Shown: piece by piece, positions 932 through 32,281 of the stretch
Numbering within the stretch: position 1 is the first letter of the stretch
How the letters are laid out: each line of letters begins with the position of its first letter
From: Clostridia bacterium
Lineage (GTDB): Bacteria; Bacillota; Clostridia; Christensenellales; QALW01
Length of the DNA: 32,948 nt
Direction: 5' to 3'
Assembly: GCA_017502165.1 (NCBI GenBank)
Contig: JAFVVO010000028.1
Coordinates: 1 to 32,948 of the forward strand
Notes under the pieces: generated by a model
What the model was told of the DNA's origin: nothing
Seen by the model: the letters and a program-made list of their open reading frames with translations, nothing else
The model's database searches: none
Program-made: the position numbers and the translations under genes

Positions 932-1591
932 CTAATACTTTCCTTCAACCTCAAATAACTCTAAAGCGCGGTTAAAATTATAGGGGTAGGCATTATCACC
1001 ATAGATTTTTACCGTTTTTTTGCCATTGTTAAAGTGAATTTCCAGATCCCACTGTGTACCATCCAAAATCTCATAACCATAACGCTTTAAATTATAGTGG
1101 TTACGCCATTCGCCAATGTGCAGGTATTTAAGTGTTTCAAGGAAACATTCTTTATCCATATCCTCAATTTCGCATTCGTCAAGATTGGATGGTTTAAGAT
1201 CAAGGGAATGTTCAATATCTATGCGGACAGTATCTCCAACAACAGTATAAGTTCTTGTTTCATAGCCGCAAGAATATCCACCGATAGAAAATACCACCTT
1301 ACGAATGTTTGGAATATTAGCATCAAACTCCATTACTTTCTTTTCGGCAGCAGACGGAACATATTCCCCACCAGCTTCTACTAAAGCCTGTTTTGCGCGC
1401 TCTAAATAATCACGTGAGCAGGAAATTCTTACGTCTTCGGACGGGCACATTGTGCATTTGTATTCTGGGTGCTCCACAATGTTTTTCAATCTGCCGATTT
1501 CTTGTTTTAACCCACGAATAACAGTCGTAATTTCTGCTGTGGTTTTACCTTTTAATTTCATTTCATAAAAAGTTTCAGGACAAATCATCAT
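932..1591 (-). CDS. Conserved clostridial hypothetical protein, 219 aa
   Basis: I do not recognise a function. The N-terminal 80 residues (CPETFYEMKLKGKT, then a helix-rich stretch ending YLERAKQALVEAGGEY) look like a small helical module with four cysteines between residues 46 and 59 (Cys-x2-Cys, then a third Cys nearby). The C-terminal half is beta-rich (GGYSCGYETRTYTVVGD; then YGDNAYPYNF near the end). There is no signal peptide or membrane segment. The gene starts inside the upstream 145-aa gene (17-bp overlap) with ribosome binding site GAGGT, so the two are very likely translated together. Two adjacent ATG codons are possible starts (1591 or 1588). Confidence 0.75.
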   Translation of the reverse strand: MMICPETFYEMKLKGKTTAEITTVIRGLKQEIGRLKNIVEHPEYKCTMCPSEDVRISCSRDYLERAKQALVEAGGEYVPSAAEKKVMEFDANIPNIRKVVFSIGGYSCGYETRTYTVVGDTVRIDIEHSLDLKPSNLDECEIEDMDKECFLETLKYLHIGEWRNHYNLKRYGYEILDGTQWDLEIHFNNGKKTVKIYGDNAYPYNFNRALELFEVEGKY

Positions 1592-2012
1592 TTTTAGTTA
1601 CCTCTTTTATATTATTTTTTATAACTCTTTTTGCGTGTTTTACCCAATTTTGATAGATTTCTCCAGGCGATTTATACTTGGTTATCAGCTTGCTAAATGC
1701 AAGAAACACCTTTGTTTTAACAATCAAATGATTGCCCATGCCAAGATTAACATAATTCCAATCCTTTGGCACCTTACTGTCAAAACCAAACAACCCAAAT
1801 TCACATTCTGCAATCATTGGAAATGCTTTAATAACATCCTGAATATTAAAACCGCCAAAGACATAATTCAAATGATATAAAGTTCCATCATCTGTAATAA
1901 AATTTATAGCGCCAGGTTCGCCCATAGCTCCGCCTTCTGCAATCATAAAGAACAAGATTTTATAAAATTGTTTTTCTTCCAAATCTTTTTGCTCAAGTTC
2001 CACTTTTTTCAT
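1575..2012 (-). CDS. Hypothetical protein, 145 aa
   Basis: Not recognised. The protein has a mixed alpha/beta pattern with distinctive stretches MIAEGGAMGEPGAINF (about 23-38) and WNYVNLGMGNHLIV (about 85-98), and a basic, lysine-rich tail. It is soluble, with no signal peptide. It starts behind a strong AAGGAGGGG ribosome binding site and overlaps the next gene by 17 bp, so it is the first gene of a two-gene operon ending at the terminator at 832-862. An immunity-like or adaptor role is conceivable, but nothing in the sequence shows it. Confidence 0.75.
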   Translation of the reverse strand: MKKVELEQKDLEEKQFYKILFFMIAEGGAMGEPGAINFITDDGTLYHLNYVFGGFNIQDVIKAFPMIAECEFGLFGFDSKVPKDWNYVNLGMGNHLIVKTKVFLAFSKLITKYKSPGEIYQNWVKHAKRVIKNNIKEVTKNDDLS

Positions 2013-2085
2013 AATTTACCCCTCCTTTTTTCTTTAATTATATCAGCACTATTGTCCAATAAACCGTACTTTAATATATTTTTTT

Positions 2086-2116
2086 ACAAAAAAAGATGCC
2101 CTTTTCAGAGCATCTT
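2086..2116 (-). terminator. Terminator of the murI-nrdR operon
   Basis: Stem AAGATGC / GCATCTT with a 10-nt loop and a run of Ts on the minus strand, starting 6 nt past the nrdR stop. Confidence 0.85.
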
Positions 2117-2121
2117 AGAAT

Positions 2122-2586
2122 TTATTGTTTTTCGCTTTGTTTAAGGAGTGAGCTTAATTCCTTCATAAAGGAATCGATATCCTTAAATTCGCGGTACACG
2201 GAAGCAAAACGAACGTAGGCTACCTGGTCAAGTTGAACGAGCTTATCCATAATCATTTCGCCGATTTCAATGGAGCTGATTTCGTGTTCCATTGAGTTGT
2301 GCACCTGACGGTCGATTTCGTTTACAACGTGCTCGATCTGTTCAACGGAAACCTTACATTTTTCGCAAGCCTTTACGATACCTCTGCGAACCTTGTCAAT
2401 TTCGAACAGCTGACGGCTGCCGTCCTTCTTAACTACCATAACGGGTGAAGATTCTATTTTTTCGTACGTAGTAAAGCGTTTACCGCAATCAGGACATTCT
2501 CTTCTGCGACGAATTACCGTTCCCTCCTCGGTTGGACGGGAATCAAGCACTCTGCTGTCAAGACATCCGCAATACATACATTTCAT
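2122..2586 (-). CDS. nrdR: Transcriptional repressor NrdR
   Basis: At 154 aa this is full length for NrdR, the repressor of ribonucleotide reductase genes. Residues 1-45 form the zinc ribbon (CMYC near residue 3 and CPDC near 31, flanking RRRREC). They are followed by the ATP-cone domain (about 46-140: VVKKDGSRQLFEIDKVRRGI), which senses ATP/dATP and controls DNA binding to NrdR boxes. The start codon overlaps the murI stop by 4 bp (ATGA), indicating translational coupling. No ribonucleotide reductase gene or obvious NrdR box pair was seen in the window, so its targets lie elsewhere. Confidence 0.97.
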   Translation of the reverse strand: MKCMYCGCLDSRVLDSRPTEEGTVIRRRRECPDCGKRFTTYEKIESSPVMVVKKDGSRQLFEIDKVRRGIVKACEKCKVSVEQIEHVVNEIDRQVHNSMEHEISSIEIGEMIMDKLVQLDQVAYVRFASVYREFKDIDSFMKELSSLLKQSEKQ

Positions 2587-3353
2587 AAAATACCTCCGCT
2601 TATAAGCCTATCAAAAAGCTCATTTGTTTTTTTATCGTCTTTTGAGGAACTTATTAAAACTGTTCCTTTTTGTTTTTCGTCACGCTTAACGTTGTTTTGA
2701 ATTAAAACGTCCTTCAAATGCTGAACTGTGCCGTCAATACCGTCGAACACAAGCACGCTTTCGCCCAGGCAGGCCTTAATTTTATCCTTAACCAAGGGAT
2801 AATGGGTGCATCCAAGAACCACGGCAGTTGCGCCCACGTCTTTATACTCCGCCAAGACGCTTTCAAGATACGGCAAAACGTCTTCCTCGCCGAAAACGGA
2901 AGCCTCTATTTTGGCGGCTAAATCGGGGCAAGGCACCTTGATAACTCGCGAATTTTTATCAAGCTTTTTTATCAAAGCACAAACGCGTTTAGATGAAAGC
3001 GTTACGCTTGTTGCTAAAAGCAACACTTTTCCGTCCGTTTGCTCAAGGGCAGGCTTGACTGCAGGCTCCATACTGATTATGGGAACGGCAACTGTTTCTC
3101 TCAATCGGTCAACCGCAATGCTCGTTGCGGTGTTGCACGCAATAACAACGGCTTTTGCGCCTTGCAAAACAAGCTTTTCAACTGCCGAGCTTGTTAGCTC
3201 AAAGACCTTGTCAGCATCCTTGGTGCCGTAAGGCGCGTTTTGCGAATCACCAAAGTATATGAAATTTTCCTCCGGCATTTGCTTAACTGCAGAATACAAA
3301 ACAGTAAGTCCGCCAACACCGGAATCGAAAAAGCCTATTGGCCTATCGGGCAT
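2583..3353 (-). CDS. murI: Glutamate racemase
   Basis: This enzyme converts L- to D-glutamate for peptidoglycan. The start chosen is ATG at 3353, preceded by GGAGG at a good distance, giving MPDRPIGFFDSGVGG and 256 aa. A longer reading frame to 3428 would add 25 residues without family similarity and run through the promoter, so it was rejected. Family motifs are present: FFDSGVGGLTV (Asp10 and Ser11), VIACNTATS with catalytic Cys73, and LGCTHYPLV with the second catalytic cysteine. It is first in the murI-nrdR operon, under a consensus promoter. Confidence 0.96.
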   Translation of the reverse strand: MPDRPIGFFDSGVGGLTVLYSAVKQMPEENFIYFGDSQNAPYGTKDADKVFELTSSAVEKLVLQGAKAVVIACNTATSIAVDRLRETVAVPIISMEPAVKPALEQTDGKVLLLATSVTLSSKRVCALIKKLDKNSRVIKVPCPDLAAKIEASVFGEEDVLPYLESVLAEYKDVGATAVVLGCTHYPLVKDKIKACLGESVLVFDGIDGTVQHLKDVLIQNNVKRDEKQKGTVLISSSKDDKKTNELFDRLISGGIL

Positions 3354-3488: not shown

Positions 3489-3524
3489 TAGTGTATTAAA
3501 TAATTACATTTCAGGAGAGCTTTT

Positions 3525-5996
3525 ATGAATTTATCAGATTTCAGCAAACATATCCTTTGCCCTAAGAACAAAGTTTGTTATCCTACTCTGGTTAAGCACA
3601 CCTTTGGTGACGTTACGGGCGCAGAAAACATTTTAGGCGCATCAGGCACTACCACCTTAACCTATTCATCAGATACCGCCCCTAAGCTTATTCTTGATTT
3701 AGGTGAATCCTCCGTTGGCGGTTATCCCGTATTCAAAATTAAATCCTATACCGGTGAAAAGCCCGTTATCCGTTTGGCCTATGCTGACTGGTATGATTAT
3801 ATTATGGACGAAACCTACGGCGAGAACGGTGATTTCCGCCGCGGTTGCTGTAAGTATCTCGGTGTTGAGCTTCCCGTTCTTCCCGGTGACCCTAACAGAT
3901 TTAATCTCTTTACAATTTCCCGCGAAGGTGAATATATTTCTCCCTTAGTTCAAGGTCAGGAGCGCTGGCTTATGATTAAGCTTGAAACTCCCGGCACAAG
4001 CGTTGAAATTGAATACGCCTATATTTATTATACTTCTGACGATTCTGCTTATGACGGCGGCTTTGAATGCTCCAATCCCGACCTTACAAAGCTTTGGTAC
4101 GCTTCCTGCTGGACTTGTCAGATTGCTACCATAAACAATTCCCACGCGTGGGACAACCTTAATTCCACCTTGCTTCTTCGCACCTTGGCAAAGGGTAACG
4201 ACGCAGGTTATTATAAAGACGGTGTTTCTCTTACCGACTACGTTATGGAGTTTGACGGTGCAATTTCCCGCAATCCTCAGATGTGCTCAGGTATTGGTGT
4301 TTTACTTCGCGCAACGGACATTACCTCAGGTTATGTAATTTTCGTTAACCTGGACGGTACCGTTCAAGCCTTTGTACGCAAGAACAACACTTATTTCGTG
4401 CTTACCACCAAAAAGCTTGATTTTGAGGTCATTGATAATAAGTTCTATCACTTTACGGCTTCCGCAAAGGGCAACGTAATTACTCTTTCTATTGACGGCA
4501 ATAACGTTCTCGAATTTACTAATGATACTTACCCCGTTGGTTCTTTCGGCTTCTGTCAGACCACCGAAAAGTTTGCAGTTGCTAAAAACCTTACCGTATC
4601 AAACGATGAGGGCGTAATCTGGAAAGACGATTTCTCCAAAAACCTTGACGCTTACGAGTTTACACGCTCCAAGCCCTTCGTTTCCGACGGCGCAAAGCGT
4701 GACCGTCTTCCCTGGATAGGTGATCTTGACTGGGCAGGCAGAAACATTTATTACGCTTTCCGCAACTTCACGCCTATGCCCGAAACCTTGCGTATGTTTG
4801 CTTTCCATCAGACGAGCGAGGGCTTCGTATGGGGCACCTGCTATCCTGAAAACACTCAAAAGCCCGAAGAAAAGGACTACGGCTACTACGAATCCGACAT
4901 TTTCTCCGCCTGGATTGTTCCCACACTTGCGGACTATCTTCTCTTCACAGGCGATAAAGATTTCTGCCGTGAGCTCTACCCCACCATTAAGGCAGACGTA
5001 GACTACTTATGGCGTTTTGTTGAAAGTGACGGCTTATTCAATCAGCGTTACGCAACAAGTAAGGGACTTTGGGACCATACCTTAAACGATATGGGCAAAT
5101 TCACCTACAATAACCTTATTATTTCAGAGGCTTTTGGTGAAGCGGCATATATTGCTAAAGAGCTTGGCTTAGAAGACGATGCAAAAGAATTTTCAATGCG
5201 CAAGGAAACCGTGCGCAAGGCTATAAGAGAAAACTTTACAAGCCCCGAAGGCTATTTAACAAAGAGCCTGACAAACAGAGACTTCTGCGAAATGTCTAAC
5301 GCTATGGCACTTTCCCTTGCATATTTTGATGACCGCAATCACGCTGCCGCTGCCCTTGAAGCGCTCCTTAACCGCACTCCCGGCCACGGCAAAACCACAA
5401 CCTTAATGATTCGTGGCGCTTATATGTACGATTTTGACGTTGAAGCGATCAGCACTCTCATTCAGCCCGGCTACCGTTACGTTCACGAAGGCGCAGAGTT
5501 TGTTGCTTTCGACCCCTTATACAATCCTAACTTTGACTTTGCATCGCTTCACATTCACCCTGCAAACTGGGTTAAGGCGCTTAACGATTGGCGCGGTCCT
5601 GCAACCACTTGGGAATGTATGACGTATCCTCCCTTTAAGGACAGCAAGGGCGAGGCTTGGGGCGACCGCTCACATCCCGACACCGCAGTTGCACACATTC
5701 TTACTGCTTATATGCTCGGTGTAATGCCCGAAAAGCCCGGCTTTAAAACCTTTACCGTTGCTCCCCACACGGCGCTTCTGGATTACGCAAAGGGCATCAT
5801 TCCTTCTAAATTCGGTGATATTTTTGCTTCCTGGAAGAAGGAAAACGACGTTCTTACCCTTTCGGTTGACTTCGCAGGCGAAAACGAGCTTGCGGGCATC
5901 AAGCTTAAGGCCGATGACGCTAAAACTTTTGTTGTAACCGTTAACGGCAAGAAAGCTTCCCAAAAATCCAATGACGGCGAATATATTTACTTTTAA
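3525..5996 (+). CDS. GH78-type alpha-L-rhamnosidase-like protein with inserted lectin-like domain
   Basis: This 823-aa protein has the layout of family 78 glycoside hydrolases, inverting enzymes that remove terminal L-rhamnose. Residues 1-175 form an N-terminal beta-sandwich region. About 390-740 is the (alpha/alpha)6 barrel, with the KRDRLPWIGD motif (391-400), a variant of the family DERLGWxGD acid motif, and GPATTWE, whose Glu697 fits the catalytic base. Residues 740-823 form a C-terminal beta domain. Between WYASCWTCQIATINN (191-205) and the barrel sits an extra region of about 180 residues (206-386) that looks like a concanavalin/LamG-like fold (GIGVLLRATDITSGYVIFVN, LSIDGNNVLEF). There is no signal peptide, so it is probably cytoplasmic. 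No transporter or sugar-specific regulator is nearby. The exact substrate is unknown. Confidence 0.85.
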   Translation: MNLSDFSKHILCPKNKVCYPTLVKHTFGDVTGAENILGASGTTTLTYSSDTAPKLILDLGESSVGGYPVFKIKSYTGEKPVIRLAYADWYDYIMDETYGENGDFRRGCCKYLGVELPVLPGDPNRFNLFTISREGEYISPLVQGQERWLMIKLETPGTSVEIEYAYIYYTSDDSAYDGGFECSNPDLTKLWYASCWTCQIATINNSHAWDNLNSTLLLRTLAKGNDAGYYKDGVSLTDYVMEFDGAISRNPQMCSGIGVLLRATDITSGYVIFVNLDGTVQAFVRKNNTYFVLTTKKLDFEVIDNKFYHFTASAKGNVITLSIDGNNVLEFTNDTYPVGSFGFCQTTEKFAVAKNLTVSNDEGVIWKDDFSKNLDAYEFTRSKPFVSDGAKRDRLPWIGDLDWAGRNIYYAFRNFTPMPETLRMFAFHQTSEGFVWGTCYPENTQKPEEKDYGYYESDIFSAWIVPTLADYLLFTGDKDFCRELYPTIKADVDYLWRFVESDGLFNQRYATSKGLWDHTLNDMGKFTYNNLIISEAFGEAAYIAKELGLEDDAKEFSMRKETVRKAIRENFTSPEGYLTKSLTNRDFCEMSNAMALSLAYFDDRNHAAAALEALLNRTPGHGKTTTLMIRGAYMYDFDVEAISTLIQPGYRYVHEGAEFVAFDPLYNPNFDFASLHIHPANWVKALNDWRGPATTWECMTYPPFKDSKGEAWGDRSHPDTAVAHILTAYMLGVMPEKPGFKTFTVAPHTALLDYAKGIIPSKFGDIFASWKKENDVLTLSVDFAGENELAGIKLKADDAKTFVVTVNGKKASQKSNDGEYIYF

Positions 5997-6366: not shown

Positions 6367-6882
6367 ATGAGTTTTACAGAAGTTGCTCTTTCAGTTTTAT
6401 ACTTGCTTCAGGAAGCAAAAATCCCCCTGAGCATTGAGCAAATGAGCCACGCCCTTGCAGAATCAAGTGAATACACTTATCTTGATGCGGCAATTTCGGT
6501 TAACAATTTGCTTGAGAAAAATCTTATAATTAAAGAAACTAACCCTATGGGTGAGTTTTACACTATTTCCGTTGACGGCAGAATTTCTCTTGCCCATCTG
6601 AAAGCAGAAATAAGAGGCTCTGTTCGCAGAGAGCTTTCCGCTTTTGTACAAGAAAACTTTGATTTGCTTAATATTCAATCAAAAGTTTATACCCGAATTG
6701 ATAAACTTGATTCAGGCGCATATCAGGTTATGCTTCGTTCCTATGATAAGGATTTATCCATGAACGATTTTATCCTTACCGCACAGGACGAAAACGAGGC
6801 AAAAACTATTGCTACCAACTGGGAACGTCACGCAGACGACGCCATTGCGGCAATTTATTCCGTACTTATGAAGGATATATGA
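6367..6882 (+). CDS. DUF4364 family protein, winged-helix-like
   Basis: This 171-aa protein matches the DUF4364 family of Clostridia. Residues 1-60 look like a winged helix (ALSVLYLLQEAKIPLSIEQM, then a second helix and NLLEKNLI, then a beta wing FYTISVDGR). About 70-165 is a mixed domain (KVYTRIDKLDSGAYQVMLRS). A transcription-regulatory role is suggested by the N-terminal fold, but no target is known. It starts 16 nt after a terminator, behind GGAG. Its 3' end overlaps the convergent minus-strand gene by 17 bp. Confidence 0.85.
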   Translation: MSFTEVALSVLYLLQEAKIPLSIEQMSHALAESSEYTYLDAAISVNNLLEKNLIIKETNPMGEFYTISVDGRISLAHLKAEIRGSVRRELSAFVQENFDLLNIQSKVYTRIDKLDSGAYQVMLRSYDKDLSMNDFILTAQDENEAKTIATNWERHADDAIAAIYSVLMKDI

Positions 6883-7603
6883 TATTATTCGTTAAGTCCA
6901 ACGAATAAACCTTATCATCAAGGATTATAGGGCTATCTGCACAAGAGCACAGGATTTTTCCTGTGCTTTTTTTTGTTGATAAAACAGTGAGCTTTTCCGT
7001 TAAAATATAGTTAAAATCAAGACCGCTGAATATGATTTTTCCCGAAAAATAAAGAATGTCCCCTATTTGCCTCGGAAAAATAATTTCTCTGATAAAATTA
7101 AGCTCCCTATCAAACGACATAATTTTGCTGAAAAATCCGTCGTTAACAAGCACGAACACTCGATTTTTAACGATAATTCTCTGAGGAGTCGACGGTAACG
7201 CCACTTCTTTTTCTATTTTGAAATCACTTAGCTTAACAAGCTTATTGTCGTGAAAGGTAACGCAATAAATTTTATTTTCCAAGACGGCAAAATCACTTAC
7301 GTGCTCCCCTATTTTTGCGGCTTGAATAGGCCTTGCGCAATCGGAAAATTGATAGATCGTTCCCGTATCGCAGGACGAAACGTATATTTCTCCATGCACC
7401 TTTATCAAGTCGGCATCAGTTGAGGCTAACGGCTCGGCAAACAAAATTTTACCGTCTTTACCGCAAAAAATGCTGTGCCTCGTTAAAAAATAAAATCTGT
7501 CTTCATACTTTGCAACGTCTCGGCAATCGGAAATAAAATACATTTTTTCCTTGCCGTTATCATTAACCGAAATACCGTTCTTCTCCCGCCTACCGTACCA
7601 CAC
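6866..7603 (-). CDS. Beta-propeller-like hypothetical protein
   Basis: The start used is GTG at 7603, preceded by GGGGTGA, giving about 245 aa. A TTG at 7621 would add six residues but has no ribosome binding site. The chain is nearly all beta: short repeated segments of the form x-hydrophobic-YF/YV-Asp/Gly (DRFYFLTRHSIF, GEIYVSSCDTGTIYQF, NKIYCVTFHDNKLVKL, NRVFVLVNDGFFSKIMSF), as in YncE/WD-like propellers with about 5-7 blades. It has no signal peptide or membrane segment, so it is probably cytoplasmic. I know of no function. Its last part contains the terminator of the opposite-strand gene. Confidence 0.65.
   Translation of the reverse strand: MWYGRREKNGISVNDNGKEKMYFISDCRDVAKYEDRFYFLTRHSIFCGKDGKILFAEPLASTDADLIKVHGEIYVSSCDTGTIYQFSDCARPIQAAKIGEHVSDFAVLENKIYCVTFHDNKLVKLSDFKIEKEVALPSTPQRIIVKNRVFVLVNDGFFSKIMSFDRELNFIREIIFPRQIGDILYFSGKIIFSGLDFNYILTEKLTVLSTKKSTGKILCSCADSPIILDDKVYSLDLTNNIIYPS
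6946..6974 (+). terminator. Terminator of the DUF4364 gene, inside the antisense coding region
   Basis: A perfect 9-bp stem (AGCACAGGA / TCCTGTGCT), TTTT loop and an eight-T tract on the plus strand. It lies entirely within the convergent propeller-like gene, 64 nt past the DUF4364 stop. Confidence 0.85.
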
Positions 7604-7647
7604 AAAATCACCCCAAAGCAATATATGCTTTTTAAGGTGCTTTTGAT

Positions 7648-11023: not shown

Positions 11024-11809
11024 ATGAAACTTATCATCAAAGACAATTACGAAGCTATGAGTGCGTGGGCTGCTCAGCATATTGCTGATGCCATCAACAA
11101 TCACAAAGAGGACCGTCCCTTTGTGTTGGGCCTTCCTACAGGTTCCTCCCCCCTCGGTGTTTACAGAAACCTCATTAAGATGAACAAAGAAGGCAAAGTA
11201 ACCTTCAAAAACGTTGTTACCTTTAATATGGACGAATACGTTGGTCTTCCCCGCGAGCATGACCAGAGCTACTGGTACTTTATGCACGACAATTTCTTTA
11301 ACCACATTGATATTCCTGCTGAAAACGTGAACATTCTTAACGGTATGGCAGAAGATTTAGCGGCTGAATGTCAGAGATACGAAGACAAAATTGCGTCCTA
11401 CGGCGGCATTGACCTTTTCCTTGGCGGAAGCGGCGTTGACGGCCACATTGCATTCAACGAGCCTTTCACATCATTAACCTCCAGAACCGGTGTGCGCGCT
11501 CTTACCGAGGATACACTCATTGTTAACTCCCGTTTCTTCGATAATGATCCCGATAAGGTTCCCAAAACTGCCCTTTCTGTTGGTGTTGGTACCGTTTGCG
11601 ATTCTAAGCCGGTGCTTCTCCTCATCAGCGGACACAATAAGGCACGCGCTCTCCGTCACTGTGTTGAGGGCGGTGTAGACCACGCTTGGACCATAAGCGC
11701 ACTTCAGCTTCACAAGGACGGCATTATCGCTTGTGACGAAGCTGCCTGCGGTGAGCTTAAGGTAGACACCTATAAGTATTTCAAAGAAATCTATAAGAAC
11801 GAAAAATAA
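11024..11809 (+). CDS. nagB: Glucosamine-6-phosphate deaminase
   Basis: This 261-aa enzyme converts glucosamine-6-phosphate to fructose-6-phosphate and ammonia. All catalytic positions of the E. coli enzyme can be seen: Asp70 in NMDEY (Asp72), and [14 protein letters not shown] with Asp139, His141 and Glu146 (Asp141, His143, Glu148). The phosphate loop [10 protein letters not shown] is intact. Ribosome binding site AAAGGAGA. It stands alone between tmcAL and the patatin-like gene, with its own promoter and terminator; no nagA or transporter is adjacent. A divergent paralogue is at 25094-26032. Confidence 0.97.
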
Positions 11810-25093: not shown

Positions 25094-26032
25094 TTAGTTG
25101 CATTCTGCCACAAGGGGACCAGCAAGCTCTTTAAGGTAGAAAAGCTTACCGGGCATTGTAGGCATAAATGAAGAGGTGATGCTCTTTTCAGGGCCATAGT
25201 GAAGTGTTGTAAGGAAGCTCATTCCCTGCCAACCCATTCCTCTGCCTAATGCACCGTCGCATCCGCCGATAATGCTATCTGCCTGCAGGAAGATGCCGGG
25301 GCCAATGGTGTTAGCAGTACAAGGAACTAAGGTTGTACGGCTCTTAAAGCTTGTAATAGCGTTCTGTTCGATTGTTAAGGGATGAAGCTTTGCGCCGATA
25401 CGGTAGGGCTGCTTCTTCCATTCTTCAACAGTATCAAACTCATCAGCGAAATGAGGCTCCCAGAAAGCAATATGACACATTCTTCCGATACCGAAAACAA
25501 GCAAAAGCTTTGCGCCCTCTGCCTTTAATGCTGCAATCTTTTCGGGGTAAGTAGGAAGATTTTCCTTTGTTGCGAAATTACGCTGACACGCAGGAACTGT
25601 GTTTTCACCTAACTTATCAAAAAATGCCTGCTTCATACTAAATTCAAAGGAAGCGGGATTTGATGAATCAAGAGTGTTGCCGTCCTTATCTGCCCATTCG
25701 TCCATATTAAAGGTGTAAACGTGGTCACACTTAACGTTCCAAGCAGTTAAGAAATAAACTGCCCACTTATACATTCCCATAGGTCCTACGGGAAGAATAA
25801 TTGCAAGCTTCTGTCCGCGCTCACGGGCATTTTTAATTTCAAGAGCAATTTCGTGGCCCATAAGTGTATCAAATTCATAAATATTCTCGCACTCGATAGG
25901 ATTGAAATCCTTGTGCCAGAAATCCTCTCTTGCAACGCCCTTTTCACAGCAGGCGTCAATTTTTGCCATATCCCATCCCTTTGGATAGAAGTTTTCAAGC
26001 AAGCTTTCCTTTACGGTTGACATAAAATCCAT
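25094..26032 (-). CDS. NagB-like sugar isomerase/deaminase homologue with altered active site
   Basis: A 312-aa protein of the glucosamine-6-phosphate deaminase/6-phosphogluconolactonase superfamily with about 50 extra N-terminal residues. NMDEW (Asp111) matches the catalytic Asp72 of E. coli NagB. The motif DGHIAFNEP is MCHIAFWEP here: His187 and Glu192 are kept, but the position of Asp141 is Met185. The phosphate loop TGSSP reads VGPMG. So it probably acts on a different substrate or by a changed mechanism from the true NagB at 11024. It is third in an operon after PIG-L deacetylase and PfkB kinase (14 nt gap). The real reaction is unknown. Confidence 0.8.
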
Positions 26033-26046
26033 AATCTTTTTCTCCT

Positions 26047-26991
26047 TTACTTTTCTCTTTCTTTCATAAAACTTTTAATTGTATCGTAATCCTTAATTCC
26101 TGCCGATGCGCCCTTTGCCTGAACGCAATGAGCGCCCGTTGCATTTGCAAACTTGATGCAATCCTCAAGGCTTTCACCTCGGGCAAAGCCGGCAAGGAAG
26201 CCTGAACAGAAGCTATCTCCCGCGCCGGTGGTATCAACAACGTTTTCAACCTTGTAGCAGGGATAAACAGTTCCCTTTTCCTGCCCTGCAAGGCGCATAT
26301 AGCTACCTTTTGAGCCTAATTTGATAATTACGTTTTTAACGCCCTTATCCATAAATACCTGAGCAATTTCGTCAGGCTCACTCTTTTGAGCAATATTAAC
26401 CGCCTCGTCAATGCTGGGCATAAAATAGTCAATGTACGGCATTGAGCAATCCAAAAGCTCTCCCCATCTGCCGCTGGCATCCCAACAAACGTCAAGGAAG
26501 GTGGTCTTCCCCATTTCCTTGCATTTTTTCAAAAACTCCATTGTTTCTTTGCCGTCAAAACGAGAAAGCAGGAACGAGCCGGTTACAAAAACCATATCGT
26601 ATTCCTCAAGCACAGAAAAATCCACGTCATCAACGGAAAACACGGCATTCGCGCCTACACAATGGAAGAAGGAACGCTCTCCGGAGGAGTCAAGTATAAC
26701 AATAGATGCAGAGGTCTGAACGGAATCGTCGTGGGACAAACCACGAACGTCAACCTCTTTATTAACTAAAATATCGTTAAGATAGTTGCCGTAAATATCG
26801 TTACCTACTTTTCCGAAAATTGCCGATTCAACGCCTAATGACCGCAAATTAAGTGCCGCCGTCATAGCGTTACCGCCGTTGTGAACGGTTATGGCGTCTA
26901 CGTTTTCCAGCTTACCCTTTTCGGGATACTTTTCTACCGTTGAAACGATAATATCCGCAACTAAAATACCTACGCAGGCAACCTTTCTCAT
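26047..26991 (-). CDS. PfkB family carbohydrate kinase
   Basis: The start at 26991 ([16 protein letters not shown], 314 aa) overlaps the stop of the upstream gene by 4 bp (ATGA); a frame from 27066 inside that gene was rejected. Family features are the [17 protein letters not shown] sugar-binding segment (37-53), [10 protein letters not shown], the two-residue lid strand [14 protein letters not shown], and the ATP/anion-hole motif [18 protein letters not shown] with catalytic Asp259. The substrate is not evident: ribokinase-, fructokinase- and aminosugar-kinase-type members share these motifs. In this operon an amino sugar freed by the deacetylase is the natural guess. Confidence 0.9.
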
Positions 26992-27686
26992 GGCAGAAGT
27001 CTCCTTGTTGTAATTTTGGGCCAGGCATATTCCTGAGTGAAGCCCTCTGCATACTGTGCACCGCACTGAAGACCGCGGAAGCGTGAGCAGGTTCTTACAA
27101 ATTCCGCAAAGTCAATTTTGTCGTGGTCACGCATCCATTTAAGCTGACTTTCGTGGCATTCGAGCATTTCTATCTTTAAGTCGATTTCATCTGAAATATC
27201 AACGTACTCGGTAGGCAAGAAATTAACGCCTGCCAAGGTATCCATATAATAAATGGGTGTAACCGCCGCTTTACCGCCGTTATTGTAATGAGGAACGCTT
27301 GCTACAAAGGAAGCATCAAACACGAGCTTTGCAACGGCAGTGTGGTCAGGCATATAGTCGTGGGGATAGTGAGTAATAATGAAGTCAGGCTGAACGTCAA
27401 TAATAAGCTGGGCAATCTTGTCGCGTTGCTCCATAGAAGCGCCGTCAACAAGCAAATCGCCAACGTCAATAGTACGTACTTCAATGCCTGCAAGGGAGCC
27501 TGCTTTTTTTGCCTCGCCTATGCGCATTTCACGTAATTCGTCGGGCTGAATAATCTCGTGGCCCATATTTCCGTTGGCAACGTGGCAAACCACTACCTTA
27601 TCGCCGCGCTTAACGCATTTTGCCAAAGTTCCGCTACAAGCAATTTCAATATCATCCGGATGACAACCAATTGCTAAAACATTCAT
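26988..27686 (-). CDS. PIG-L/LmbE family deacetylase
   Basis: A 232-aa zinc-dependent N-deacetylase of the PIG-L/LmbE family, which deacetylates N-acetylglucosamine units in lipids, bacillithiol and mycothiol precursors or free sugars. The HPDD motif (His9 to Asp12) and HYPHDYMPDH (106-115) supply the zinc ligands and base. No signal peptide, so it acts in the cytoplasm. Ribosome binding site CAGGAGG. First gene of the operon; the 4-bp overlap with the kinase implies coupled translation. The substrate is unknown. Confidence 0.92.
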   Translation of the reverse strand: MNVLAIGCHPDDIEIACSGTLAKCVKRGDKVVVCHVANGNMGHEIIQPDELREMRIGEAKKAGSLAGIEVRTIDVGDLLVDGASMEQRDKIAQLIIDVQPDFIITHYPHDYMPDHTAVAKLVFDASFVASVPHYNNGGKAAVTPIYYMDTLAGVNFLPTEYVDISDEIDLKIEMLECHESQLKWMRDHDKIDFAEFVRTCSRFRGLQCGAQYAEGFTQEYAWPKITTRRLLP

Positions 27687-27718
27687 TTTTATTAAAACCT
27701 CCTGAAATTAAAAAATAG

Positions 27719-27747
27719 TTGACTTTACCTGCTTTTAATTATACAAT
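27719..27747 (+). promoter_or_regulatory. Promoter of the AraC-type regulator gene
   Basis: TTGACT (27719-27724), 17-nt spacer, TACAAT (27742-27747). Its -10 overlaps that of the divergent operon. Confidence 0.6.
27738..27743 (-). promoter_or_regulatory. -10 box of the deacetylase operon, with no proper -35
   Basis: TATAAT on the minus strand (27743-27738), 52 nt before the start codon. No TTGACA-like hexamer lies 16-18 nt upstream, as expected for an activator-dependent promoter. It shares two base pairs with the opposite -10. Confidence 0.5.
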
Positions 27748-27814
27748 ATTAATAAAAGAATGTATTTGCCAATAATCTTTTTTGATTTATCATTTTTTCC
27801 GTTGAGGTGGTTTT

Positions 27815-28687
27815 TTGTTTACAACACAACAAATTAAAAAAGAAATTATTATTGATGGTTTCAACAGTATTTATTACTTTGAGTTCAGCAAGAGCTTTTC
27901 TCACGCTCCCGAAAAGCACGACTTTTGGGAGATGGTGTACGTTGACAGCGGTGAAATTATTGCCGTAACTAACGGCGCAGGCTGCGCGCTTGGCTGCGGT
28001 CAGGTAATTTTTCACGAGCCTATGGAGCAGCACGCCCACATTTCCAACAATCTTGTGCCAAACAATATGCTCGTAATTTCATTTTCATCTAAAAGTCCTG
28101 CTATGTCCTTTTTCTCAAAGAAGACCTTTACCTTAGATAAAACCGCCAAAACATTGCTTTCCCTATTTATTGACGAGGCAAAAAAGGCGCTTGGTAAAAT
28201 TCCCGATAACTATAATATCCGAGGCGATCTTTCCTTTGAAAAGGCGCCCTTTGGTTCAACTCAGCTGCTTGAGTGCTTCTTTACCGAATTTTTAATTCAT
28301 CTTGTCCGCTTGGGTGAGGAAAACACAAAAGCCATAACCCAGAGCACCAAATCCCGCGCCATTGCGGAAAGCTCAATAGCAGAGCTGATGAAGGATTATA
28401 TGCAGGAGCAGATTTACGCAAATCTTACTCTGCCCGAGCTTTGCGCCCACTTTATGCTCGGCAAATCCCAATTAAGCAAGATTTTTAAGGAAAACACAGG
28501 TCAAAGTCCTATGTCATATTACACGGAAATAAAAATTGCCGAAGCAAAACGGCTTTTGCGTCAAGGCACCTTTTCCGTTACCGAAATTTCTGAAAAATTA
28601 GGGTATCTTGACATTCACAGTTTTTCGCGGGCATTCAAAAAAGCCGTAGGTCTTTCCCCCACGGCTTACATAAAGAGTATATTTTAA
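27815..28687 (+). CDS. AraC family transcriptional regulator
   Basis: A 290-aa protein with an N-terminal cupin-like sensor domain (about 20-110: FEFSKSFSHAPEKHDFWEMVYVDSGE, then a sugar-pocket-like barrel) and a C-terminal AraC DNA-binding domain (about 190-290: two helix-turn-helix units, LTLPELCAHFMLGKSQLSKIF and FSVTEISEKLGYLDIHSFSRAF, then SPTAYIKS). The start is TTG at 27815 behind GAGGTGG. It is divergent from the deacetylase/kinase/NagB-like operon across 128 bp and very likely controls it in response to a sugar. Confidence 0.93.
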   Translation: MFTTQQIKKEIIIDGFNSIYYFEFSKSFSHAPEKHDFWEMVYVDSGEIIAVTNGAGCALGCGQVIFHEPMEQHAHISNNLVPNNMLVISFSSKSPAMSFFSKKTFTLDKTAKTLLSLFIDEAKKALGKIPDNYNIRGDLSFEKAPFGSTQLLECFFTEFLIHLVRLGEENTKAITQSTKSRAIAESSIAELMKDYMQEQIYANLTLPELCAHFMLGKSQLSKIFKENTGQSPMSYYTEIKIAEAKRLLRQGTFSVTEISEKLGYLDIHSFSRAFKKAVGLSPTAYIKSIF

Positions 28688-31030: not shown

Positions 31031-32281
31031 TTAAATTTCAACAAATCTGTGGTTACCGAGACAGTCGCAGAAATAAACTGCCTTTTTGCCACCCTTTTCA
31101 ACAGTAAAATCGCATTTCAGCGCGGGCTTTCCCGGTGTACGTACCGAATAAGCCTCAGTAATAAAGGTTTCTCCTTCAATTCTGCCAACGGAAACGTAGT
31201 TAAGATACTGCAGACCGTCGGAATACTTAGGCAACGTGCTTTCCACGTCAAGAGCGCGGTAAGCCTCAAAGGAAATAGTTACGTGGTTTTCGCTTTCTGC
31301 CTTCTGAATAGAAATTCCCGCCATATCGTTAGGCTTTGAGGTGTGGAAAATTTCCACGTCAAAGGTGCTTTTAGCGGTTAATCTGCGGCGGAAGGTCAAT
31401 AAGCTCAATGCCGCCTTATCAACGCCGATAAACCGTCTGTTATTGTTAAATGCGCTGATTAATGTAGTTCCGCTTCCTGCAAAAAGGTCGCAAACGATAT
31501 CGCCCTCTCGGGAGCAGGACTTAATAATTCTGTCTAATAATTCTAATGGCTTTTGTGTGCCAAAGCCCGTTCTTTCGGGGTGCTTTTGCTGAAGATGCGG
31601 AATATCCCAAACGTCATCAAAGGAAACAATATCATCTTCATAATATTTGTACTCCTTGCCGTTGCTCTTGATAGAGAAATACACTCTGCCATCAACGTCA
31701 ACGTTTTTCTTCATATGATTTTGTTTTTTGTCCGTTCTTGCCTTGCCTGCGGCGGCAGGATTAATTTTTACGTTGGACTTTTTGCCGTAAATGTAAATGT
31801 TATCGTGCTTTGCAGGGAAGGAATGCTTGCTTGAGCCGCCCGAATGATAATGCCAGATAATCTCGTTAATAAAGCAATTTTCGCCAAAGACTTTATCGAG
31901 AAGAATTCGAACGTATGCCGAAGCGTGACGGTCAACGTGAACGCAAACAACGCCGTCATCAGTTAACAATTCCTTGGTTCCTTCCAAAACCTTGCCTAAA
32001 AACTCCAGGTACGCCTCTCTGCTTTCCCACTGGTCCGAATATGAGGGAATTTTGGCAAAATACTGTCTGTTACCTGCAAATCCCTTTTCACCTACGGGCA
32101 TATTGGCATCAAATTCTCTGCCCGTCATAAAAGGCGGATCAAAATACACAAGCTTTACCTTGCCTGCGTGTTTTTCTATCAGTTCAGGCATAATTTCCAA
32201 AGTATCTGCCAGATAAAACTCACCCGGCAAAGAACCGAAAAAGCTATTATTTATATTTATTTTTTCACTTTTTATCAGCAT
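31031..32281 (-). CDS. Solitary beta-class DNA (adenine/cytosine-N) methyltransferase
   Basis: A 416-aa SAM-dependent amino-methyltransferase. The catalytic motif IV DPPF (48-51) comes before SAM-binding motif I FAGSGTT (267-273), the beta-class order; GTQKPLELLDRIIKS (241-255) is the conserved motif X segment. This fits N6-adenine or N4-cytosine methylation. No restriction gene or other methyltransferase subunit is in the window, so it is an orphan. The C-terminal 110 residues resemble no motif I know. Start at 32281 with ribosome binding site GGTGA. Cotranscribed with recG. Confidence 0.88.
   Translation of the reverse strand: MLIKSEKININNSFFGSLPGEFYLADTLEIMPELIEKHAGKVKLVYFDPPFMTGREFDANMPVGEKGFAGNRQYFAKIPSYSDQWESREAYLEFLGKVLEGTKELLTDDGVVCVHVDRHASAYVRILLDKVFGENCFINEIIWHYHSGGSSKHSFPAKHDNIYIYGKKSNVKINPAAAGKARTDKKQNHMKKNVDVDGRVYFSIKSNGKEYKYYEDDIVSFDDVWDIPHLQQKHPERTGFGTQKPLELLDRIIKSCSREGDIVCDLFAGSGTTLISAFNNNRRFIGVDKAALSLLTFRRRLTAKSTFDVEIFHTSKPNDMAGISIQKAESENHVTISFEAYRALDVESTLPKYSDGLQYLNYVSVGRIEGETFITEAYSVRTPGKPALKCDFTVEKGGKKAVYFCDCLGNHRFVEI

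Follow-up and report, generated by a model that had tools for sequence, protein, structure and literature searches.

A predicted CBM66-like module inserted ahead of the general acid in a putative GH78-type alpha-L-rhamnosidase of a Clostridia bacterium

The stretch of Clostridia bacterium DNA analyzed here (32,948 nt; hereafter the window) contains a gene for a GH78-like alpha-L-rhamnosidase in which a predicted beta-sandwich, with CBM66 as its closest solved relative, lies between the N-terminal domain and the catalytic barrel. The parts of this protein and their order, its catalytic residues, the predicted fold of the module and the retention of the module in two bacterial families are supported by computation. 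The layout looks like an unusual arrangement of two well-known parts, not a new kind of system.

Gene, domains and catalytic residues

The gene begins with an ATG, and a ribosome-binding-type sequence (AGGAGAG, 3513 to 3519) ends 5 bases ahead of this start; the remaining features are collected in Table 1. Pfam matches PF17389 to residues 387 to 621 (61.5 bits against a cut-off of 24.5, covering positions 33 to 257 of the 339 of the profile) and PF17390 to residues 732 to 782 (29.1 bits against a cut-off of 22.1), and the barrel probably ends near residue 731, as judged from where PF17390 begins. In the G623 ortholog the PF17390 match scores 20.4 bits, just under the same cut-off, and an NCBIfam scan of the window protein gave no match near any cut-off. 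A full-protein profile of four orthologs (the window protein, G001, G002 and G623) finds the solved GH78 structures 8iwd (A. niger Rha-2), 2okx (Bacillus sp. GL1), 8hmm (AoRhaA) and 3cih (BT_1001), and in the profile search of solved structures query residues 6 to 205 align with residues 3 to 186 of the 8iwd chain. As judged from sequence, the product would be a GH78-type enzyme, predicted to hydrolyze alpha-L-rhamnosides with inversion.

Table 1. Coordinates of the rhamnosidase gene and its parts within the window
Feature	Residues	Window position	Strand	Basis
GH78-like alpha-L-rhamnosidase gene	823 aa	3525..5996	+	ORF call, Pfam
N-terminal domain, ending in helix region LTKLWYASCWTCQIATINN	1-205	3525..4139	+	Alignment to A. 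niger Rha-2
CBM66-like beta-sandwich module (predicted)	206-358 (to 370 possible)	4140..4598 (to 4634 possible)	+	Profile, model
Linker between module and barrel	359-386	4599..4682	+	8iwd alignment, insert model
(alpha/alpha)6 barrel, catalytic domain	387 to ~731	4683..5717	+	PF17389 match 387-621
Acid motif DGAKRDRLPWIGD	388-400	4686..4724	+	Alignment with 3cih
Putative general acid	Asp393	4701-4703	+	Aligns with BtRha78A Asp335 (3cih)
Putative general base, within TTWECMTYPP	Glu697	5613..5615	+	Aligns with 2okx Glu841
C-terminal beta domain	PF17390 match 732-782	5718..5993	+	Pfam

Both Asp393 and Glu697 are invariant in the four orthologs, and Glu841 of 2okx is a residue that we take to be catalytic. 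On our reading, BtRha78A is the same protein as BT_1001 (3cih). Its general acid is Asp335, within a motif running from D330 to D342, according to the available part of PMC12838782, and it has this Asp-type acid in common with the window protein. Index 337 of the 3cih chain equals the published residue 335 if the solved chain has two extra residues, an offset that we accept because it fits both published ends of the motif (330 and 342). By the division given in the same part of that paper, the window enzyme is placed by its predicted acid in the Asp-type subfamily I. Two adjoining GH78-type paralogs of the same genome (L057 and L058; G000:C4:22158-25515) have an odd acid-motif region, ESCPRTEMKFFSGD and ESCPRNEMKFFAGD, respectively, and are without the insert.

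Site and predicted fold of the insert

From the start of the last N-domain helix (LTKLWYASCWTCQI) to the start of the acid motif we count 201 residues, and the gap between the matched stretches spans 169 residues in the window protein (205 to 375) versus 27 in 8iwd (186 to 214). The helix of the preceding domain directly abuts the acid motif in all 38 other GH78-type proteins compared, which are best-scoring matches and not a random GH78 sample. These proteins, together with the short gap of 8iwd, agree with the preliminary description, which held that about 180 residues split the N-terminal part from an acid motif that normally follows closely; the 38 compared proteins lack the insert at that site. 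The 38 comprise 37 proteins in which a script found the motif, plus a paralog with a differing motif that was read by eye (L056); the 37 exclude the window protein and its three orthologs and include the same-genome paralogs L057, L058 and L060. Abutment was judged by eye on the 45 residues printed before the motif, the automatic helix-to-motif distance being unusable in some rows, where it was absent or had been thrown off by a match further upstream, and 12 loci in which no motif was found (L005-L008, L011, L013, L018-L021, L029 and L054) were dropped.

The module proper ends near residue 358 to 370 (window about 4598 to 4634), a border that we give as a range because a predicted strand at residues 363 to 368 could belong to either the module or the linker. 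The interval first put forward, residues 206 to 386 (4140 to 4682), holds as an insert but reaches too far at its 3' end, where the last 16 to 28 residues, up to 4682, are the usual GH78 linker. The length of this linker (359 to 386) is about that of the 27-residue gap of 8iwd.

When the insert alone was compared with solved structures by phmmer, the first matches were three entries of the CBM66 of B. subtilis levanase SacC (4azz, 4b1l and 4b1m), the best being 4azz with an E-value of 0.0027. A slightly extended insert matched CBM66 at 0.0013, collinearly over chain residues 8 to 162 of 172, and a profile of the four orthologous inserts matched it at 5.6e-8 (over 59 to 161), with a neurexin LamG domain next at 0.0013. 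Matches of the insert to a viral fusion protein, IRE1 and Photorhabdus lectins (phmmer E-values of at least 0.02) were taken as chance. A model of the insert alone, made with three sequences, is a beta-sandwich of 12 strands (mean pLDDT 74.8, pTM 0.75), with 10-residue pLDDT means of 84 to 96 at model residues 51 to 140 and 151 to 160 and values below 50 at model residues 1 to 21, 142 to 145 and 170 to 181. Foldseek places CBM66 at the top for this model (E-value 8.1e-10, with the best non-CBM66 row at 4.1e-6), and VIA-align 2 aligns 141 residues with CBM66 (Z 16.0, rmsd 2.6, 21% identity), covering model residues 8 to 155/158, that is, protein residues 213 to 360/363; galactocerebrosidase and galectin rows rank after CBM66, with Z of at most 13.9. 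The full-length model, also made with three sequences, has a mean pLDDT of 50.9 and is too poor to show where the module sits with respect to the active site; GH78 enzymes, followed by CBM66, head the Foldseek matches of that model, which were used only as agreement.

Pfam matches on the insert are all sub-threshold, to DUF7908, LamG and PF06439 (3-keto-disaccharide hydrolase), with the insert alone scoring 19.1 bits against a cut-off of 27.6 for Laminin_G_3, 17.7 against 22.9 for Laminin_G_2 and 15.4 against 26.8 for PF06439. Residues 206 to 358-370 are predicted to form a separate beta-sandwich whose closest solved relative, by sequence and by modeled fold, would be CBM66, the similarity being remote, at about 21% identity. 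The LamG/concanavalin-like pattern noticed earlier thus stands as regards the predicted ConA/LamG-type jelly roll and is refined as regards the family, the closest solved one being CBM66 and not LamG proper. LamG proper and galectin were both rejected, as they rank below CBM66 in the profile search and in VIA-align 2, respectively. The idea of a circularly permuted jelly roll, raised by a DDF at the C-terminal end of the module, likewise found no support, the CBM66 alignment being collinear from near its start.

Distribution, other carriers and genomic context

Full-length relatives bearing the insert are found in two genomes of the same genus as the window genome, G001 (71% identity) and G002 (63%), and in G623, from another family of the class (36% over the match and 25% in the insert region). 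For the insert (206 to 358), identity to the window protein is 73%, 53% and 25% in G001, G002 and G623, respectively, and for the barrel it is 75%, 73% and 38%. The searches covered 5 genomes of the family, 297 of the order, 391 of the class, 16 of the family of G623 and 299 of the phylum, in overlapping sets and with E-value limits of 0.001, 1e-8, 1e-8, 1e-40 and 1e-40, respectively. Two genomes of the window's family but another genus (G003 and G004, 70% and 91% complete) gave short, weak matches only, and no relatives were found in viral contigs and phages, nor in plasmids with either the whole protein or the insert as the query. Since some PF17389 match occurs in 99 of 196 genomes of the class and orthologs with the insert are few, the arrangement is uncommon in the set that was searched, yet it extends beyond one assembly. 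Of 391 genomes probed with a degenerate DNA version of the acid motif, only the window's own and G623 matched; the pattern proved too stringent for surveying GH78, and PF17389 was used for that purpose instead. The insert has a GC3 of 0.464, where other stretches of equal length in this gene span 0.41 to 0.59, and a GC content of 0.436, near the 0.439 of the N-domain; its composition therefore gives no hint that it was acquired recently. These sequence comparisons support retention of the module in two bacterial families.

The four-insert profile matches in 21 of 291 genomes of the class, the window's own genome counted, and Pfam was run on 10 of the 23 other loci that it matched. The scanned carriers are a GH28 protein, a GH106 rhamnosidase, a GH78 protein, a rhamnogalacturonan lyase 11, two beta-helix proteins, proteins with ADP-ribosylglycohydrolase, CBM3 and malectin domains, and one with only LamG/PF06439 over cut-off. 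In the GH78 carrier the module match (185 to 307) lies ahead of a Bac_rhamnosid_N domain, a site unlike that of the window protein. Four of the ten (GH28, GH106, GH78 and rhamnogalacturonan lyase 11) are pectin- or rhamnose-related, which suggests the kind of ligand that the module may bind. PF06439 exceeds its cut-off at the site of the module match in three of the ten (L063, L067 and L079), indicating that the relatives of the module form a broad group of sandwiches that extends beyond CBM66. The GH106 carrier (L068 in G524, ORF 1345-3351, minus strand) has its match near the C-terminal end and represents a second rhamnosidase family with such a module. The best E-value of the insert profile outside the window's own genome belongs to the ADP-ribosylglycohydrolase carrier (L062 in G332, ORF 1453-3261, minus strand), which also shows, more C-terminally and in frame, a sub-threshold 3-keto-disaccharide-hydrolase match (440 to 589).

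The neighbors of the gene are largely housekeeping (nrdR, an Asp/Glu racemase, DUF4364, yceD, ackA and a HIGH nucleotidyl transferase). In G001 the gene is flanked by the same racemase and DUF4364 families according to Pfam, and the order from nrdR to ackA, read from translations, is the same. With respect to the cell location and surroundings of the enzyme, the preliminary description reported neither a signal peptide nor sugar-uptake neighbors, and our results are in line with both points. No signal peptide is apparent by eye and the N-terminus lacks a hydrophobic stretch (over the first 46 residues, mean hydropathy in 12-residue windows peaks at 0.53), and no sugar transporter occurs among the 33 Pfam-scanned ORFs of the 45 other window ORFs of at least 100 aa, the remaining 12 of which mostly overlap larger ORFs. 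The N-terminus also lines up with the beginning of the 8iwd chain (query residue 6 with chain residue 3), and the enzyme is probably intracellular, as far as its sequence indicates. The same genome has four further PF17389 proteins and an L-rhamnose isomerase.

Elsewhere in the window there is a glucosamine-6-phosphate isomerase-like ORF (11024-11809) and, some 20 kb off, a PfkB-type sugar kinase, a PIG-L-type deacetylase and an AraC regulator (26047-28687). The kinase and the deacetylase lie on the minus strand with a 312-aa ORF without a Pfam match, the divergent AraC regulator adjoins them, and the whole (25094-28687) looks like a small sugar-processing cluster. A 416-aa N6/N4 DNA methylase (31031-32281, minus strand) adjoins recG. 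Between DUF4364 and yceD, both the window (6866-7621, minus strand) and G001 (L009:9324-10055) encode a protein of about 250 aa with no Pfam match over cut-off and only a weak beta-propeller match. The G623 copy of the rhamnosidase has an AraC-type regulator nearby and adjoins a protein with a sub-threshold GH99 match. Also beside this rhamnosidase copy lies an 891-aa protein (L085:1630-4305, minus strand; G623:C8) that carries a tyrosine-phosphatase domain at its C-terminus and matches fn3 below threshold; its first 550 residues have no Pfam match at an E-value of 0.1.

Comparison with known enzymes and possible roles of the module

The fungal GH78 enzymes Rha-2 (8iwd/8iwf) and AoRhaA (8hmm) have the N-domain, the pre-linker helix, the acid motif DGAKRDRLxW and part of the barrel in common with the window protein; they differ in their chains of 638 and 642 aa, respectively, and, for 8iwd, in the 27-residue gap where the window protein has 169. 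The insert is also missing from 3cih, in which the N-side match runs to chain residue 326 and that of the barrel starts at 327. SaRha78A, a GH78 enzyme of Streptomyces avermitilis, reportedly contains a CBM67 (Fujimoto, in 2013) and, as far as the title of that work alone allows the likeness, resembles the window protein in having a carbohydrate-binding module among its domains, the CBM family being different. The SacC CBM66 is collinear with the module over most of its chain at 20 to 22% identity and has the same predicted fold. In SacC, the exo-levanase of Bacillus subtilis, CBM66 forms the C-terminal domain of a GH32 enzyme and binds fructans (PMC6560043, in the part available), whereas the window module is spliced inside a GH78-type enzyme.

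We lean, with moderate confidence, toward an intracellular exo-rhamnosidase whose inserted CBM66-like module holds or orients the substrate. The enzyme would work inside the cell as an inverting, exo-acting alpha-L-rhamnosidase of the GH78 type and the Asp-acid subfamily; it would have a single N-terminal beta-sandwich, as in fungal Rha-2 and AoRhaA, and a complete CBM66-like module would have been inserted, in an ancestor, into the linker between N-domain and barrel, about 25 to 35 residues ahead of the general acid. The module may then lie near the active-site mouth and bind or orient the sugar end of the substrate, as CBM66 grips the non-reducing fructan end for SacC. The substrate would presumably be an imported rhamnose-containing oligosaccharide or plant glycoside, with the released rhamnose passing to the cell's RhaA pathway. 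A bolder version, in which the module acts as an active-site lid with distal subsites that gives a cytoplasmic GH78 enzyme a new specificity, as a subsite and not as an appended anchor, we consider rather doubtful.

The serious rival to a substrate-holding module, and a distinct possibility in our view, is a purely structural role, in which the CBM66-type fold would serve barrel packing, dimerization or active-site shielding without binding sugar. Two observations that favor it also count against substrate holding: the enzyme seems intracellular, and a CBM makes more obvious sense in a secreted enzyme than in one that lacks a secretion signal; furthermore, in G002 and G623, two of the three orthologs, the insert has diverged further than the barrel, though in G001 the two are nearly equally conserved (73% versus 75%). 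The C-terminal domain of BT1760, a CBM-like sandwich judged to be structural in the available part of PMC6560043, offers a precedent by analogy, indicating that such sandwiches are not all binders. However, the nearest solved relatives of the module are CBM66, and the two characterized members described in the accessible text of PMC11002231 both bind glycans, one of them fructans and the second not fructans but xanthan. Because these two differ, transfer of a ligand by homology is unsafe.

The remaining readings concern what the region is. That it is a further catalytic domain, similar to 3-keto-disaccharide hydrolases (PF06439), which would give the enzyme two activities, appears improbable: three of the four orthologous inserts do match PF06439 (E-values up to 0.1, best 0.00024), and the insert profile finds domains over the PF06439 cut-off in three of the ten other proteins, but the window insert itself stays well under that cut-off and CBM66 is best among solved structures by both profile and fold. 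Least probable of all, to the point of being hardly credible, is that an ordinary GH78 part, whether an extra N-terminal domain or an elaboration of the barrel, has been misread as an insert. GH78 enzymes have one to five beta domains according to the part of PMC12838782 available, so that the number of beta domains before the barrel is nothing out of the ordinary; yet here the region follows an N-domain that is complete down to its last helix, a helix that runs directly into the acid motif in the 38 compared proteins, and the nearest fold is CBM66, not a GH78 domain. The preliminary description had named a region belonging to the barrel or to the ordinary N-terminal domains as the outcome that would speak against it; the insert, modeled by itself, is instead predicted as a separate jelly roll with CBM66 as its best match.

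This arrangement of a GH78-type enzyme and a CBM66-like module is new as far as we searched and may already be listed in CAZy; a literature search found no paper on a GH78 crystal structure with an inserted jelly-roll domain. In this predicted rhamnosidase a binding-type module is built into the protein and not appended to it, at a constant site a short way upstream of the general acid. Were the module to bind sugar, the protein would be a natural example of GH78 specificity tuned by insertion that could help somewhat in engineering rhamnosidases, and it would broaden the range of CBM66 beyond the two characterized specificities named in the accessible text of PMC11002231.
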